DNA from: Paraburkholderia sp. PGU19
GTDB taxonomy: Bacteria > Pseudomonadota > Gammaproteobacteria > Burkholderiales > Burkholderiaceae
Direction of reading: 5' to 3'
Length of the DNA stretch: 64,000 nucleotides
Assembly: GCF_013426915.1 (NCBI RefSeq)
Contig: NZ_AP023180.1
Coordinates: forward strand, 1,240,001-1,304,000
Shown: positions 5,154 through 18,997 of the stretch, piece by piece
Position numbering within the stretch: the first letter of the stretch is position 1
How the letters are laid out: every line of letters begins with the position of its first letter
Translations under genes and position numbers: made by a program
Notes under the pieces: model-generated
Database searches by the model: none
Told to the model about the DNA's origin: nothing
The model's input: the letters and a program-made list of their open reading frames with translations, nothing else

Positions 5154-6047
5154 TTACGCGTCTCCATCCTTGCGATACAGCTTGATCACCGCCGAGAAGT
5201 CGAGCTTGCCGGCGCCGTTCGTGCTCATGGTCTGATAGAGCTGTTGCGCTAGCGCGCCGAGGTAGACGGGTTGGCGCGCGAGTTTGGCGGCATCGGTGGC
5301 GAGGCCGAGGTCCTTGAGCATCAGGTCGGTGCCGAAGCCGCCTGTGTAGCCGCGCGTCGACGGTGCGGTGTCGATGACGCCGGGGAACGGGTTGTAGGTG
5401 TCCGAGCTCCAGCAACGTCCCGTGGATGTGTTGATGATCTTGCCCAGTACCTGGGGGTCGATGCCGAGTTTTTCGCCGAGCGCCATCGCTTCTGACACGC
5501 CCGCCATCGTGATGCCTAGCACCAGGTTGTTGCAGATCTTTGCGACCTGGCCCGTCGAGGTTTCGCCGCAGTGGACTATGTTTTTGCCCATTGCTGAGAG
5601 GATTGGTTTTACCTGTTCGTATGTTTCTGCGGTGCTGCCGACCATGAATGTCAGTGTGCCGGCTGTTGCGCCGCCTGTGCCGCCTGAGACCGGCGCGTCT
5701 ACGAAGGTGTTTCCGTTCTGTGTCGCCAGTTCGGCGAAGGCTTTTACGCTGGCTGGGTCGATCGTGCTCGAATCGATGATCGTTACGCTCTTCGCGATGC
5801 CCGCGAGGATGCCGTCTTCGCCTGTTAGCACGGCTTTTACATGTGCTGCGGCTGGGAGCATCGTGATGACGTATTCGACGTCCGTCGAGGCTTCTTTTGG
5901 GGTTCTTTTTGCTGTGGCGCCCGCTTCTGTTAATGATTGCACTGCGTGCGCGTTCAGGTCGAAAACGTTCAGTACATGTCCCGCTTTCAGCAGGTTTAGC
6001 GCCATCGGCGCGCCCATGTTGCCTAGTCCTATGAAGCCGATTTTCAT
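5154..6047 (-). CDS. mmsB: 3-hydroxyisobutyrate dehydrogenase
   Basis: 297 residues. The N-terminal Rossmann motif is GLGNMGAPMALNLLKAGH, the substrate loop DAPVSGGTGGATAGTL (about 120) and the catalytic lysine lies in GQVAKICNN (about 170); all are signatures of the beta-hydroxyacid dehydrogenase family. It oxidises 3-hydroxyisobutyrate to methylmalonate semialdehyde with NAD+. The first 150 codons use unusually many A-ending codons (ATA, CTA, TTA, AGA, GGA, GTA) compared with the rest of the gene and its neighbours. This end faces the giant palindromic element at 6147-6808, which separates mmsB from mmsA. Translation likely depends on transcripts passing that element or on a promoter inside it. 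Confidence 0.95.
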   Translation of the reverse strand: MKIGFIGLGNMGAPMALNLLKAGHVLNVFDLNAHAVQSLTEAGATAKRTPKEASTDVEYVITMLPAAAHVKAVLTGEDGILAGIAKSVTIIDSSTIDPASVKAFAELATQNGNTFVDAPVSGGTGGATAGTLTFMVGSTAETYEQVKPILSAMGKNIVHCGETSTGQVAKICNNLVLGITMAGVSEAMALGEKLGIDPQVLGKIINTSTGRCWSSDTYNPFPGVIDTAPSTRGYTGGFGTDLMLKDLGLATDAAKLARQPVYLGALAQQLYQTMSTNGAGKLDFSAVIKLYRKDGDA

Positions 6048-6082
6048 GTTCGCTCCTGTGGTTTTGTCTGCGATTGCTATGG

Positions 6083-6141
6083 TGGTTTTAGGGTTTTAGG
6101 GTTTTAGGGTTTTAGGGTTTTAGGGTTTTAGGGTTTTTGGG
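6083..6141 (+). repeat. Tandem octamer repeat GGGTTTTA (telomere-like)
   Basis: Five perfect GGGTTTTA units occupy 6091-6130, flanked by degenerate units on both sides. The tract lies between the mmsB start and the left arm of the palindromic element. It looks like an extreme product of the GT-rich strand bias of this flank, expanded by slippage. A chromosomal end is unlikely because genes continue on both sides. Confidence 0.85.
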
Positions 6142-6146
6142 TTTCT

Positions 6147-6808
6147 GCGCTGGCATCCGCGTTTTGTTAGCGTGCTTCAAGCGTCGCCCCTGTGCGGGGC
6201 GGCACCTACTTTTCTTTGCCGCCGCAAAGAAAAGTAGGCAAAAGAAAGCGGCTCACACCGCCAACACTTCTTCTTGCCTGAGGGCCCCCAACGGGTCTTA
6301 CACTTCACACGGCAATCACATGACTCATCTTTGTTGCCAGCGCTCTTGCGTTGCGCATCACCCGCTTCACGCCCCCACGTCGCCACATGCCGCGCCGGAC
6401 ATTCCACCGCCGCCCAGGTGGCAAACTGTGTGTAGGCCGTAGTGCCTCGCACGCCTCACTTCGGACCGATAGCGCACGCGTTCCACCATGTAAGAGCGCT
6501 AACGTGTATGCCGCGACAACCTACACACAGTTTGCCACCTGGGCGGCACATACCATTCGCTGCCGTTCGCCCTTGTACGGGCGGTTGAAGCGGGTGCGGC
6601 GTTTATTCAAAGCGTTGGCAACGAACGTGGGTCACGTAATTGCCGTGTGAAGCGTAAGACCCGTTGGGGGCCCTCAGGCAAAAACTAGAACTGGCGGTGT
6701 GAGCCGCTTTCTTTTGCCTACTTTTCTTTGCGGCGGCAAAGAAAAGTAGGTGCCGCCCCGCACAGGGGCGACGCTTGAAGCACGACAACAAAGCGCGGAT
6801 GCCAGCGC
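6147..6808. repeat. Giant palindromic repeat element, copy 1 (about 660 bp imperfect inverted repeat)
   Basis: The left arm from 6147 (GCGCTGGCATCCGCG) is the reverse complement of the right arm ending at 6808, with near identity over at least 116 bp at the ends (6147-6262 versus 6693-6808). Pairing continues inwards through GGGCCCCCAACGGGTC (near 6282) and its partner near 6660. It ends at an inner inverted repeat, GCCGCCCAGGTGGCAAACTG (about 6409) versus its complement around 6520-6547. Each arm carries a 15-bp-stem hairpin of CCTACTTTTCTTTGC type (6214-6237 region and 6718-6750). No transposase or other real gene lies inside. A second copy is at 17553-18209. Confidence 0.9.
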
Positions 6809-6851
6809 AAAGACCAAAACACCACCCAGCGTCGCAGACAAACAAAAACCC

Positions 6852-8381
6852 TTATCGAAGGCTAATGGTCGTATTCACACCATCACTAACAGTGGCATCA
6901 TCAAACCATCTTGCGGTAACAGTCTTAGTCTGCGTATAAAACTGCACAACCTGCTTGCCATAAGGCCCAAGATCCCCAAGCTTCGACCCGCGAGATCCAG
7001 TAAAACTAAAAAACGGCACCGGCACGGGAATAGGAATATTGATCCCAACCTGCCCCACGTCGATCTCGCTCTGAAACTTCCGCGCCGCCGCGCCGCTCTG
7101 CGTAAAGAGCCCCACACCATTGCCCATTGGATTGCTATTCACGAGCGCAATGGCATCATCCAGTGTCGGCACGGTCATCACACACAACACCGGCCCAAAG
7201 ATCTCCGTCTTATAGACATCCATCTCGACTGAAACATCACTAAAAACCGTCGGCCCGATGAAATTGCCAGCCTCGTAGCCAGGCACACCAACACCACGCC
7301 CATCCAGTGCAAGCGTCGCCCCCTCCTTAACACCTGCCTCGATGAGGCCCAAAATGCGCTCTTTCGCAGCACGCGAAACCACCGGCCCGATATCCGTGCC
7401 AGCCTCATGACCGGCATTCACCTTCAATGTCTTCGCCTTCGCGACAAGGTCCGGCAACCACTCCTTCGACGACCCCACCAGCACCACGACGGATGTCGCC
7501 ATACACCGCTGTCCCGCCGCACCAAAGCCGGCGCCCGCCAGCGCATTCAGCGTCTGTTCGCGGTTCGCATCAGGCAACACGACAGCGTGATTCTTCGCGC
7601 CCATCATCGATTGCACACGCTTGCCGTGCTGGCTGCCCAGGTTGTACACATGCGTGCCCACCGCCGTCGATCCAACAAACGAAATCGCTTTCACCAGCTC
7701 ATGCGTGCACAACCCATCGACGACTTCCTTCCCGCCATGCACCACGTTCAACACGCCCTTCGGCACGCCCGCTTCGATGGCCAGTTCGACCAGTTGCATC
7801 GTCGATAGCGGGTCCTGCTCCGACGGCTTCAGCACGAACGTGTTGCCGCATACGATCGCCATCGGGAACATCCACAGCGGAATCATCGCCGGGAAGTTGA
7901 ACGGCGTAATGCCCGCGCACACACCAATCGGCTGGCGCAGCGTGTACGTGTCGACGCTGCCCGCCACGTTCTCCGCGAACTCGCCCTGCTGCAACGTGCC
8001 GATCGAACACGCATGCTCGACCACTTCGAGGCCACGGAAAATGTCGCCTTCGGCATCGGGCAACGTCTTGCCCTGCTCCGCCGTCAACGTCTTCGCGATG
8101 CGCGGCATGTGCTCGCGAATCAGTGCCTGGTACTTCAGCATGATGCGCATGCGCGCGCCAATCGGCGTGTTCTTCCAGGTCGCGAACGCGGCATGCGCGG
8201 AACGGATCGCCGCGTCCACTTCCGCTTTCGTCGCGAACGGTACGCGCGCCAGCACTTCCTGCGTCGCCGGATTCACGATGTCGCGCCACTCGGTCGCGCT
8301 CGACTCGACAAATTCGCCGTTGATCAACAGCTTGACCGTGTCGACCTTGCGGTCAGCCAGAGTCGAAGGAATTGCGCTCAT
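6852..8381 (-). CDS. mmsA: CoA-acylating methylmalonate-semialdehyde dehydrogenase
   Basis: 509 residues of the aldehyde dehydrogenase superfamily. Features are ITPFNFPAMIPLWMFPMAI (about residue 165), the NAD-binding FVGSTAVG, and the catalytic cysteine in GAAGQRCMATS (about 290), as in MmsA. It converts methylmalonate semialdehyde to propionyl-CoA, NADH and CO2, finishing valine catabolism. The start overlaps the stop of the acyl-CoA synthetase gene by ATGA. The last roughly 150 codons switch to T-ending codons (GAT, AAT, GTT, CTT, TTT), the opposite bias from mmsB. The stop is about 45 bp from the palindromic element. Confidence 0.95.
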   Translation of the reverse strand: MSAIPSTLADRKVDTVKLLINGEFVESSATEWRDIVNPATQEVLARVPFATKAEVDAAIRSAHAAFATWKNTPIGARMRIMLKYQALIREHMPRIAKTLTAEQGKTLPDAEGDIFRGLEVVEHACSIGTLQQGEFAENVAGSVDTYTLRQPIGVCAGITPFNFPAMIPLWMFPMAIVCGNTFVLKPSEQDPLSTMQLVELAIEAGVPKGVLNVVHGGKEVVDGLCTHELVKAISFVGSTAVGTHVYNLGSQHGKRVQSMMGAKNHAVVLPDANREQTLNALAGAGFGAAGQRCMATSVVVLVGSSKEWLPDLVAKAKTLKVNAGHEAGTDIGPVVSRAAKERILGLIEAGVKEGATLALDGRGVGVPGYEAGNFIGPTVFSDVSVEMDVYKTEIFGPVLCVMTVPTLDDAIALVNSNPMGNGVGLFTQSGAAARKFQSEIDVGQVGINIPIPVPVPFFSFTGSRGSKLGDLGPYGKQVVQFYTQTKTVTARWFDDATVSDGVNTTISLR

Positions 8382-16117: not shown

Positions 16118-17419
16118 ATGGACTCCGTAAAACGGTATTTCGGCTTTGACGAAGCGGGCACGACCCTGCGCGTGGAAGTGCTGGCAGGCGTCACCACCTT
16201 CCTCACAATGGCCTACATCATCTTCGTCAATCCGGCGATTCTCGGCGATGCGGGCATGCCCAAAGACTCGGTGTTCGTTGCGACCTGCCTCGTGGCGGCG
16301 CTCGCCTCGCTCATCATGGGCTTCTACGCGAACTACCCGATCGCGTGCGCGCCGGGCATGGGCCTGAATGCGTACTTCGCGTACACGGTCGTCAAGGGGA
16401 TGGGCTTCACGTGGCAGGCTGCGCTTGGCGCGGTCTTTATCTCCGGCTGCCTGTTCCTGATCGTCACGCTGTTCCGCGTGCGCGAGGTGATCGTCAATGG
16501 CATTCCGCATTCGATTCGCGTCGCGATCACGGGCGGCATCGGTCTCTTTCTCGCGATCATCTCGTTGAAGGCGGCGGGCATCGTGACGGGCAGTCCGGCG
16601 ACGCTCGTCACGCTTGGCAACCTGCACGATCCGCATGTGGTGCTGGCCATCATCGGCTTCTTTGCGATCGTCATGCTGGATGTTCTGCGCGTGCGCGGGG
16701 CGATTTTGATCGGTATCGTCGGCGTGACGATTTTGAGCTTCTTCTTTGGCGGCAACCAGTTTCACGGCATCGTGTCCGCGCCGCCGTCGATCTCGCCGAC
16801 GCTGTTCCAGCTCGATGTAAAGGCTGCGTTGTCGACGGGTGTGCTGAATGTGATTCTGGTGTTCTTCCTCGTCGAACTGTTCGATGCGACGGGTACGCTG
16901 ATGGGTGTCGCGAATCGCGCGGGGCTGCTGGTGCATGGCAAGATGCACCGGTTGAACCGCGCGCTGCTTGCGGATAGTACGGCGATCCTCGCCGGGTCGA
17001 TGCTGGGTACGTCGTCGACGACGGCTTATATCGAAAGCGCTTCGGGCGTGCAGGCGGGTGGGCGTACGGGTGTTACTGCGATTACGGTTGCTGTGCTGTT
17101 TTTGCTGGCGCTGTTCTTTGCGCCGCTGGCGGGGGTTGTGCCGGGTTATGCCACGGCGCCGGCTTTGCTTTACGTGTCTTGTCTCATGTTGCGGGAGATG
17201 GCCGACTTGCCTTGGGACGATGCTACTGAAGTCGTGCCTGCTGCACTCACCGCTCTTATGATGCCGTTCACCTATTCCATCGCGAATGGGGTGGCGTTTG
17301 GGTTTATTTCCTATGCTGGGCTTAAGTTGCTTACCGGGCGCGCGCGGCAGGTGAAACTCGTTGTGTGGGTTATTGCTGCTGTGTTTTTGTTTCGGTTTTT
17401 TTATCTTGGGTCGGAGTGA
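16118..17419 (+). CDS. AzgA-type purine (guanine/hypoxanthine) permease, NCS2 family
   Basis: 433 residues with about 12-14 hydrophobic segments. Family signatures are FLTMAYIIFVNPAIL (about residue 27), CAPGMGLNAYFAYTVV (about 76), LVELFDATGTLMGVANRAG and GTSSTTAYIESASG (about 297), typical of AzgA/PurP-like proton symporters for adenine, guanine or hypoxanthine. It stands alone. The last roughly 130 codons become rich in T-ending codons and GT-rich on the coding strand as the gene approaches the second palindromic element, which begins just after the stop. Confidence 0.9.
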   Translation: MDSVKRYFGFDEAGTTLRVEVLAGVTTFLTMAYIIFVNPAILGDAGMPKDSVFVATCLVAALASLIMGFYANYPIACAPGMGLNAYFAYTVVKGMGFTWQAALGAVFISGCLFLIVTLFRVREVIVNGIPHSIRVAITGGIGLFLAIISLKAAGIVTGSPATLVTLGNLHDPHVVLAIIGFFAIVMLDVLRVRGAILIGIVGVTILSFFFGGNQFHGIVSAPPSISPTLFQLDVKAALSTGVLNVILVFFLVELFDATGTLMGVANRAGLLVHGKMHRLNRALLADSTAILAGSMLGTSSTTAYIESASGVQAGGRTGVTAITVAVLFLLALFFAPLAGVVPGYATAPALLYVSCLMLREMADLPWDDATEVVPAALTALMMPFTYSIANGVAFGFISYAGLKLLTGRARQVKLVVWVIAAVFLFRFFYLGSE

Positions 17420-17424
17420 CGTTT

Positions 17425-18345
17425 TTGGGTTTTGGTTTTGGTTTTGGTTTTGGTTTTTGGTTTTTGTCTGCGACGCTGGTGAGTGTTTGCGCTTGCGCTG
17501 GCATTCGCGTTTTGACTTCGTGGCGCGGCCGGTTTGGTTTGCTCGTGTTTTCGCTGGCATCCGCGCTTTGTTAGCGTGCTTCAAGCGTCGCCCCTGTGCG
17601 GGGCGGCACCTACTTTTCTTTGCCGCCGCAAAGAAAAGTAGGCAAAAGAAAGCGGCTCACACCGCCAACATTTCTTCGTGCCTGAGGGCCCCCAACCGGT
17701 CCCTCACTTCACACGGCAACCTTCCTGTTAGCGTTCGTTGCCAACGCTCTTGCGCTGCGCCTCACCCGCTTACGCGCCCGCGTCGCGGCACGCCACGCCA
17801 GACATTCCGCCGCCGCCCAGGTGGCAAACTGTGTGTAGGCCGTGGAGACACACATGCCTCACTCCGGACCGATAGCGCACGCGTCCCACCCTGTAAGAGC
17901 GCCGCGCCATACGACGCGACAACCTACACACAGTTTGCCACCTGGGCGGCGCATACCATTCGCTGCCGCCAGCCGTTGTACGGGTGTTTGAAGTCGGTGA
18001 GGCGTTCATTCGAAGCGTTGGCAACGAACGCGAACAGGAAGGTTGCCGTGCGAAGCGTAAGACCGGTTGGGGGCCCTCAGGCAAACACTAGAACTGGCGG
18101 TGTGAGCCGCTTTCTTTTGCCTACTTTTCTTTGCGGCGGCAAAGAAAAGTAGGTGCCGCCCCGCACAGGGGCGACGCCTGAAGCACGCTAACAAAACGCG
18201 GATGCCAACAGCAAAAACAAGCAAACCACCCAGCGTCGCAGACAACCAAAACCCCAACGGCATCGCCGCACCGCAGGTCCCATTCACATACGAAAAAAGC
18301 AAAACCAGAACCAAAGCAAAAACAAAAACAAAAGCAAAAACAAAA
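17425..18345. repeat. Giant palindromic repeat element, copy 2, with complementary low-complexity ends
   Basis: The core 17553-18209 matches copy 1 at 6147-6808: left GCTGGCATCCGCG, hairpin CCTACTTTTCTTTGC, inner repeat GGTGGCAAACTGTGTGTAGG, and mirrored right arm. Outside the core, the left flank (TTTTGG)n and TTTGTCTGCGACGCTGG (about 17463) is the reverse complement of CCAGCGTCGCAGACAA (about 18229) and the (CAAAAA)n tract at 18310-18345. The whole unit is thus about 900 bp. A truncated second copy of the arm start (GCGCTGGCATTCGCG) lies at about 17496. No real gene is contained. Confidence 0.88.
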
Positions 18346-18409
18346 CCCTTGCCCCCATCCCCGTTGCACCGCACAATCCCCTTCAAACCCCACCCTTCTG
18401 GTGCCACCC

Positions 18410-18997
18410 ATGGCATACGCCTCCTTCGCCACCGGCGTGCTCCTCGCGGCCGGCTACGGATCGCGCTTCGACCCGGAAGGCATCCACAATAAACTCCTCG
18501 CCCGCCTGCCCGACGGCACCCCCGTCGCGTTCGAATCCGCGCATCGACTGCTGCTGGTCGTCCCGCACGTCATCGCGATCGTGCGCCCCGGCTCGGAGAT
18601 GCTCGCCCGCGTGCTCAACGACGCCGGCTGTCACGTGATCTTTTCCGCCGACGCCGAGCGCGGCATGGGCGCAAGCCTCGCCGCCGGCATCGAAGCGAGC
18701 GAGGACGCCGACGGCTGGATCGTCGCGCTCGCCGACATGCCCCGCATCGCCACGCCAACCATCGAAGCCGTCGCGCGCGCAGTCGACGGCGGCGCGTCCA
18801 TCGTCGCGCCCTACTATCAGGGGCAGCGCGGCCATCCCGTCGGCTTCGGCATCGAACATCGCGACGCGCTGCTCACGCTCGACGGCGACACGGGCGCCCG
18901 CGCGCTCTTCGCCACGCATCCCGTGAAGCGCATCGAAGTCGACGATCCCGGCGTGCTCAGCGATATCGACACGCCCGAAGACCTGCGCAACGTCTAG
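18410..18997 (+). CDS. MobA-like NTP transferase (molybdenum cofactor cytidylyltransferase, MocA-type)
   Basis: About 195 residues from ATG at 18410 (a GTG at 18401 is also possible). The nucleotide-binding motif is VLLAAGYGSRFDPEG with NKLLARLPDG; the metal/acceptor motif is ALADMPRI (about residue 110), then GQRGHPVGFG and a closing VDDPGVLSDIDTPEDL. These match MocA, which converts Mo-molybdopterin to its cytosine dinucleotide for hydroxylases such as the one at 1-2653. That functional link is inferred; the genes are about 16 kb apart. The start of the gene is G-poor on the coding strand because of the adjacent palindrome. Confidence 0.82.
   Translation: MAYASFATGVLLAAGYGSRFDPEGIHNKLLARLPDGTPVAFESAHRLLLVVPHVIAIVRPGSEMLARVLNDAGCHVIFSADAERGMGASLAAGIEASEDADGWIVALADMPRIATPTIEAVARAVDGGASIVAPYYQGQRGHPVGFGIEHRDALLTLDGDTGARALFATHPVKRIEVDDPGVLSDIDTPEDLRNV

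Follow-up and report, generated by a model that had tools for sequence, protein, structure and literature searches.

Mirror-image strand skew beside a repeated palindromic element of Paraburkholderia sp. PGU19 and its possible origin in recurrent opening of the element

Why should two genes that run in the same direction favour opposite synonymous codons on the two sides of a single palindromic element? The question is raised by mmsB and mmsA in the window analysed here, a 64,000-nucleotide stretch of contig NZ_AP023180.1 of Paraburkholderia sp. PGU19, in which an inverted repeat of ~700 bp, hereafter the element, separates the two genes (copy 1) and occurs a second time (copy 2). Close to copy 1, mmsB uses A-ending codons (fourfold A 0.37 in its first 150 codons) and mmsA uses T-ending codons (fourfold C 0.19 and T 0.29 in its last 150 codons). 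We found that copies of the element are flanked on both sides by a strand skew that is symmetric about the element, decays with distance, depends on the presence of the element and is independent of gene direction and of fork direction. Recurrent opening of the element with 5' resection is in our view the best reading of this pattern, and we hold it with about even confidence.

5154..6047, minus strand: mmsB, 3-hydroxyisobutyrate dehydrogenase, on the left flank of copy 1 and pointing away from it (TIGR01692, 456 bits, cut-off 292)
6132..6823, no strand: element copy 1, an inverted repeat with arms 6132-6344 and 6611-6823 (90% complementary), forming one end-to-end hairpin
6205..6238, no strand: left 34-bp palindrome of copy 1 (15-bp arms, 4-bp centre)
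6409..6547, no strand: inner stem of copy 1, with arms 6409-6453 and 6503-6547 and the core motif at 6462-6480
6717..6750, no strand: right 34-bp palindrome of copy 1
6852..8381, minus strand: mmsA, methylmalonate-semialdehyde dehydrogenase, on the right flank of copy 1 and pointing toward the element (TIGR01722)
~17530..18240, no strand: element copy 2, with palindromes at 17609-17642 and 18120-18153

Strand skew around the element

Left of copy 1 the plus strand is rich in T (A 6, C 12, G 17, T 25 at 5581-5640), right of it in A (A 22, C 20, G 11, T 7 at 6961-7020), and further away the counts are A 7, C 22, G 16 and T 15 (8041-8100); these counts, made by hand in an earlier note on this DNA, were exact on recount, and family matches bore out its names for mmsA and mmsB and the leftward direction of both. 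The AT skew switches from -0.49 at 5851-6150 to +0.37 at 6751-7050. Copy 2 shows the same switch more strongly, the left-minus-right difference in plus-strand T/(C+T) being 0.181 at copy 1 and 0.310 at copy 2.

Across the genome, we sampled 60 loci of ~20 kb, chosen by the core motif and not by skew, together with the window, amounting to 1.22 Mb of contigs C1-C3 with C4 and C5 left out. The 137 palindromes found there gave 61 pairs, each consisting of a left-type and then a right-type palindrome less than 2.1 kb apart, and 15 unpaired palindromes that were excluded. Plus-strand T/(C+T) was higher on the left than on the right in all 61 pairs, compared with 132 of 286 control positions, and the difference averaged 0.160 (minimum 0.032) in pairs and -0.001 (standard deviation 0.055, maximum 0.218) in controls (Mann-Whitney p ~2e-30). 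The C-to-T pattern on the plus strand left and the minus strand right, described in the earlier note from copy 1, thus recurs with its sign change at every pair, the place where that note had looked for a possible refutation. On a stricter view, both flanks exceed the control mean plus one standard deviation in 49 of the 61 pairs; when the two flanks are averaged, 15 elements do not rise above the highest of the 286 controls, and the weakest element is equalled or surpassed by 99 controls.

With approach to the element, C on the strand that runs toward it drops from 0.31 to ~0.20 and T increases from 0.18 to ~0.32; the profile is mirror-symmetric and is gone by ~1.2 kb, the innermost ~100 bp being the element itself. 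Fourfold T/(C+T) climbs toward the element above a base of 0.14 with an exponential scale of 387 bp, a better description than a linear model of 1,056 bp (negative log-likelihoods of 25,600 and 25,619, respectively), and the effect amounts to ~0.11 per flank. C-to-T enrichment is seen after every 5' base, somewhat stronger after T, and is nearly context-free. Fourteen solo ends carry no skew on average (0.34-0.38), with one exception at 0.46/0.49.

A proposed recurrent opening with 5' resection and its rivals

In the reading that we prefer, the ~700-bp element would fold into a very strong hairpin and would be opened repeatedly, by a two-ended break or by nicks on both strands inside the folded element. 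The 5'-ended strand would then be lost outward on both sides, so that its partner, whose 5'-to-3' direction points at the element (the plus strand on the left and the minus strand on the right), would lie single-stranded for some hundreds of bases. Mutations from damage in this exposed strand would be fixed, deaminated cytosine being read as T and damaged G probably likewise, until in the long run the flanks would settle at a strand-biased equilibrium. On each side, the strand that has changed does enter the element in the 5'-to-3' direction, as it should after 5' resection on both sides. In the accessible part of a study of mutation clusters (PMC6786661), yeast single-switch clusters at breaks have C changes on the left and G changes on the right, with the reverse order absent or very rare, and many single-switch clusters in cancers show the reverse order. 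According to the available part of PMC3799438, C-to-T is the main change of single-stranded DNA under oxidative stress in yeast.

The main rival, which we consider unlikely while keeping it in play, dispenses with a break: the polymerase would be halted by a hairpin in its template, plus or minus, and the stretch 5' of the block would stay unfilled, so that the plus strand is exposed on the left (plus template) and the minus strand on the right (minus template), with the same sign as 3' tails. Such a block, like the proposed opening, is in keeping with the very strong hairpin potential of the element, whose single strands fold at -321.7 kcal/mol for copy 1 (6125-6830; -131.4 for shuffles) and -333.1 kcal/mol for copy 2 (-141.2 for shuffles; 20 shuffles each), and the ~1 kb range is of the order of Okazaki fragments. 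A mainly lagging-strand block should, however, load the origin-side flank, whereas the fork-side difference between flanks is 0.002 ± 0.010 (n=61), or -0.001 ± 0.017 on the dnaA replicon (n=24), against the effect of ~0.11; fork direction on C2 and C3 was assigned from GC skew and from what we take to be a KOPS-like motif. The independence of fork direction argues against a block of the lagging strand only, so that a gap would require leading and lagging blocks to be equally frequent, and the lack of an origin-side difference favours a two-sided opening, whether by a break or by paired nicks. Separately, a nick at a single asymmetric core site is disfavoured, the core-orientation effect being 0.001 ± 0.010 (n=60).

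The skew is present whichever way the neighbouring genes run. At fourfold sites of toward-pointing genes, C 0.39 and T 0.08 far from the element become C 0.15 and T 0.27 in the nearest bin, and in away-pointing genes G 0.47 and A 0.06 become G 0.27-0.29 and A 0.19-0.32 in the two nearest bins; the gene caller relies on codon usage and may overlook strongly skewed genes. Tandem loci (33) are skewed on both sides (0.518 on the toward-gene side, 0.454 on the away-gene side, control 0.366), convergent (20) and divergent (4) loci have the same skew sign as the tandem ones, and four further loci lie without a near gene. The absence of a 3'-end gradient in 509 genes more than 3 kb from elements, together with the tandem loci, speaks against gene-end effects and expression-linked codon choice, the latter having been doubted already from mmsA and mmsB alone.

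Selection for a G/T-rich toward strand, either as recombination-friendly (Chi-like, RecA-loading) sequence or through a C-rich, G-poor outward RNA that loads Rho, appears improbable. The outward-reading RNA would indeed resemble Rho sites in being rich in C and A and poor in G, yet Rho loading in sense RNA would harm away-pointing genes, and these are skewed; Chi (GCTGGTGG) occurs 9 times on the toward strand vs 5.4 expected, which is no strong enrichment, and the gradient at fourfold sites is smoothly exponential over ~1 kb at many loci. We give still less credit to transcription through or out of the element that exposes one strand. The predicted small RNA Bp1_684 of Rfam reads outward at the element ends, with one of four matches over the gathering score, but outward transcription would presumably expose the other strand, and the skew keeps one sign in tandem, convergent and divergent loci alike.

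The skew also follows the element among relatives, as seen for mmsA, mmsB and the gene left of copy 2.

16118..17419, plus strand: gene left of copy 2, pointing toward it; no NCBIfam match, permease-like by eye only
18401..18997, plus strand: gene right of copy 2, pointing away from it; NTP-transferase-like, best NCBIfam match under its cut-off

For mmsA, the last 150 codons were compared in 32 named relatives out of 80 retrieved, with a palindrome sought within 2.5 kb downstream. Third-position C and T (C3, T3) are 0.08-0.24 and 0.24-0.34 where the element is present (PGU19, P. sp. C35 and P. sp. Tr-20389), and 0.27-0.58 and 0-0.21 in the 29 without a palindrome in that range, one of which (L100) shows just 113 bp downstream. 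The two top T3 values among these 29 (Pandoraea and a second H160 locus) are equalled at the other end of the gene, and P. piptadeniae, in which only the mmsB-side half of the element is left, has C3 0.43 and T3 0.02 on the mmsA side. For the other two genes we took the best 30 loci each, those of the gene at 16118-17419 coming from 58 genomes. The 3' end of this gene is T-rich in PGU19 (T 0.31 and C 0.15 in the last 150 codons), and T3 is 0.26-0.36 in six orthologues with the element and 0-0.09 in 23 without it; A3 of mmsB is 0.28-0.37 in six with and 0.01-0.10 in 22 without, and takes values of 0.23 in genome G005 and 0.17 in G021, where only outer-end matches are present. G005 carries a variant element at locus L236, where the 3' end of the 16118-17419 orthologue has G 0.66, C 0.24 and T 0.07, a different balance of changes.

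Skew is likewise present at the two genes examined in G001 and G042, the genomes with the most copies, at elements of G020 (10 units), G019 (4) and G002 (2), at both copies of P. largidicola and at three of the four flanks of two close copies in P. caribensis; it is weaker in G005 (6 units), with some flanks at background. Since orthologues without the element are unskewed and relatives with it are skewed, the skew arises beside the element, and the codon pattern was absent from element-free orthologues of all three genes, a comparison that the earlier note had also named as a possible refutation. A preference of the element for sites that already had this composition, for which no support was found, is scarcely credible on the same ground, the element-free orthologous sites (29 named mmsA, 23 second-gene and 22 mmsB loci) being unskewed.

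Substitutions, counter-evidence and candidate enzymes

PGU19 and G001 are 6.5% different over 312 kb aligned and share 14 elements, two of which are reduced to a single palindrome in PGU19. At fourfold sites of toward-pointing genes, differences at 110-400 bp from shared elements exceed those at 2-6 kb for C-T (0.075 vs 0.045), for G-T (0.065 vs 0.011) and in total (0.242 vs 0.153), with A-G at 0.025, compared with 0.038 at 400-800 bp and 0.035 at 2-6 kb. In away-pointing genes, the nearest bin (84 sites) has C-T, G-T and A-G differences all raised. Given the accompanying rise in G-T, deamination may not be the only change. Six lineage-specific sites were examined, one of which, G001 1,240,168, is without even a mini-element in PGU19; its flanks are unskewed so far (0.39 vs 0.38), and 21 positions have T in G001 and C in PGU19 against 9 of the reverse (p=0.04, uncorrected, for one of six sites). 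Mini-elements were seen at three sites at which the long form is missing from one of the two species compared; a short GCCCC repeat joins the two outer ends there, and the inner part is lost. Such loss between GCCCC repeats, expected of an unstable palindrome, is counted in favour of recurrent opening.

Several observations weigh against this reading. All-site A-G differences are lower near elements (0.016-0.033 within 800 bp vs 0.034-0.038 beyond 2 kb), and extra damage alone would not predict such a fall. Changes polarised on the branches of PGU19 and G085 with G001 as outgroup comprise 26 C>T vs 35 T>C at 110-900 bp, with no net gain, in a weak test on three genomes 5-8% apart with 19 kb of G001 aligned; old copies look balanced in recent substitutions, without a continuing net gain of T. 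Where long and mini forms occupy the same site, C/T differences lack a consistent direction, and mini-elements of ~90 bp retain the skew (mean 0.498, n=5). The arms of the element itself show no degradation, the 387-bp scale is short for RecBCD resection, and the break, the nick and the single-stranded DNA are postulated from the sequence pattern. The recurrent breakage with deamination put forward in the earlier note has therefore fared unevenly: its sign matches two-sided 5' resection at yeast breaks, as far as the accessible part of PMC6786661 describes them, while the break itself is conjectural, deamination may not be the sole change and recent substitutions are balanced. Likewise, the C-to-T signal that it expected in the substitution spectra of related genomes has a possible counterpart in the raised C-T differences near elements and none in the polarised changes.

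A cruciform cut by SbcCD, offered as an example in that note, found no support, and canonical SbcCD is an unlikely cutter in view of the protein family matches. In PGU19, neither SbcD nor SbcC had a match above the curated cut-offs: SbcD reached at best 56.8 bits (cut-off 77.65), over positions 1-100 of 252, and SbcC 21.9 bits among the 30 of 93 candidates that were scored. One of 14 control genomes attained the SbcC cut-off. The best SbcD matches in G001 and G042 had 26.5 and 28.5 bits. Among 12 genomes, SbcD exceeded its cut-off only in G043 and G018 and SbcC only in G043, and RecD was over the cut-off in all 12, a point in favour of the resection reading. G018 also holds two strong sub-cut-off SbcC pieces, and the SbcD genes of G018 (contig C27) and G043 (contig C107) each adjoin an SbcC match. 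The 56.8-bit match in PGU19 is a divergent Mre11-like phosphoesterase of 510 aa on C4 (L311:3207-4739), under both the SbcD and the Mre11 cut-offs, and its gene lies ~15 kb from a second RecD-like gene (C4:1243103-1245124). A relative within the Mre11 superfamily, such as this C4 protein, could act at the element.

In its full form, which we put forward tentatively and with somewhat less than even confidence, the proposal is that each copy would be opened or broken recurrently, without canonical SbcCD and whichever way the fork runs, and would subject its neighbours to a mutation gradient directed by strand while it is present; ~125 loci per genome would then record the exposure of 3' tails, and the codon usage of neighbouring genes would be set by their distance to the repeat. 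If true, this would provide a natural, sequence-only readout of where bacterial DNA sits single-stranded, which of its strands is exposed and how far the exposure extends, and what becomes of long palindromes in bacteria lacking canonical SbcCD can be tested directly, e.g., in cultured P. caribensis. It also calls for caution, as mutation, and not expression or replication, can lie behind the codon usage, divergence and skew seen close to such repeats.

The element, its distribution and known systems

The ~700-bp element comprises two 34-bp palindromes, conserved outer ends of ~85 bp, 213-bp arms and an inner stem with the core motif. Start-to-start spacing of the palindromes is 510-515 bp in 49 of the 61 pairs, 522 bp in one and longer in 11. 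Ten of the 61 units are split by apparently different insertion sequences, their open reading frames judged by eye (C1:112413, 482506, 1727164 and 2358018; C2:34673 and 1730643; C3:828816, 1420769, 2200619 and 2230234), and the element thus seems a favoured target; the eleventh long unit (995-bp spacing) is by eye a tandem of element sequence. An internal gene of the element's own is disfavoured, as 50 of the 61 units are short-spaced and the 11 longer ones hold differing open reading frames judged by eye to be insertion-sequence-like or tandem. At the one site whose counterpart in another species is without even a mini-element, no target-site duplication was seen by eye, and ~100-150 bp differ there. 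Three right-end motifs lie in tandem, 61 bp apart, at C2:72681, 72742 and 72803 of PGU19, with no skew. The PGU19 genome (11.25 Mb, 5 contigs) holds 251 palindromes, corresponding to ~125 element copies, and the palindrome occurs in 26 of 79 sampled genomes, namely PGU19, 25 of 46 of the same genus and none of 32 others.

Further features adjoin or overlap the ends of the two window copies:

6084..6144, plus strand: tandem tract (GGGTTTTA) left of copy 1, rich in G and T when read toward the element
18241..18347, plus strand: A/C-rich tract right of copy 2, the other strand being G/T-rich
6113-6215, 6740-6835, 17536-17619 and 18143-18239: matches to Bp1_684 (Rfam)

The telomere-like G/T tandem tracts (GGGTTTTA and GGTTTT, at 6084-6144 and 17420-17477) lie immediately outside the element, and at both window copies such tracts are G/T-rich toward the element every time.

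We recognised no published description of this element or of its skew in a search of the open-licence literature; in the part of PMC7186790 available, palindromes are mentioned only in a CRISPR reference. Like REP, BIME and REPIN repeats with their RAYT proteins, the element is high-copy, intergenic, palindromic and hit by insertion sequences, but REP units measure 20-40 bp, in contrast to a unit of ~700 bp with 213-bp arms. The Rfam family RF02421 (Bp1_684), a predicted Burkholderia small RNA, covers the outer ends of the element and differs in that all four ends of the two window copies are matched, each reading outward (one over the gathering score), from which the family may describe the repeat end rather than one small RNA gene. 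Graded C-to-T and A-to-G strand asymmetry is a feature of mitochondrial and prokaryotic replication, in which strand composition likewise tracks the time spent single-stranded; that asymmetry is set by the origin, whereas the skew described here is local, forms mirror images on the two flanks of each repeat and shows no effect of fork direction. Long palindromes cut by SbcCD in E. coli, as covered in the accessible part of PMC3315005, share with the element a long interrupted inverted repeat, the capacity to form a hairpin and suspected breakage, while the Paraburkholderia element is natural and present in ~125 copies, its effect is two-sided and not tied to the fork, and the searches made in its host found no canonical SbcCD. 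In strand pattern the skew resembles the clusters at resected breaks in yeast, where, in the part of PMC6786661 available, C changes occupy the top strand to the left of the break and G changes lie to its right; each of those clusters arises in one burst in a living cell, often through an enzyme (APOBEC, tCw context), and spans longer tracts, whereas beside the fixed bacterial repeats of Paraburkholderia we see what would be an evolved equilibrium, nearly context-free and ~1 kb wide.

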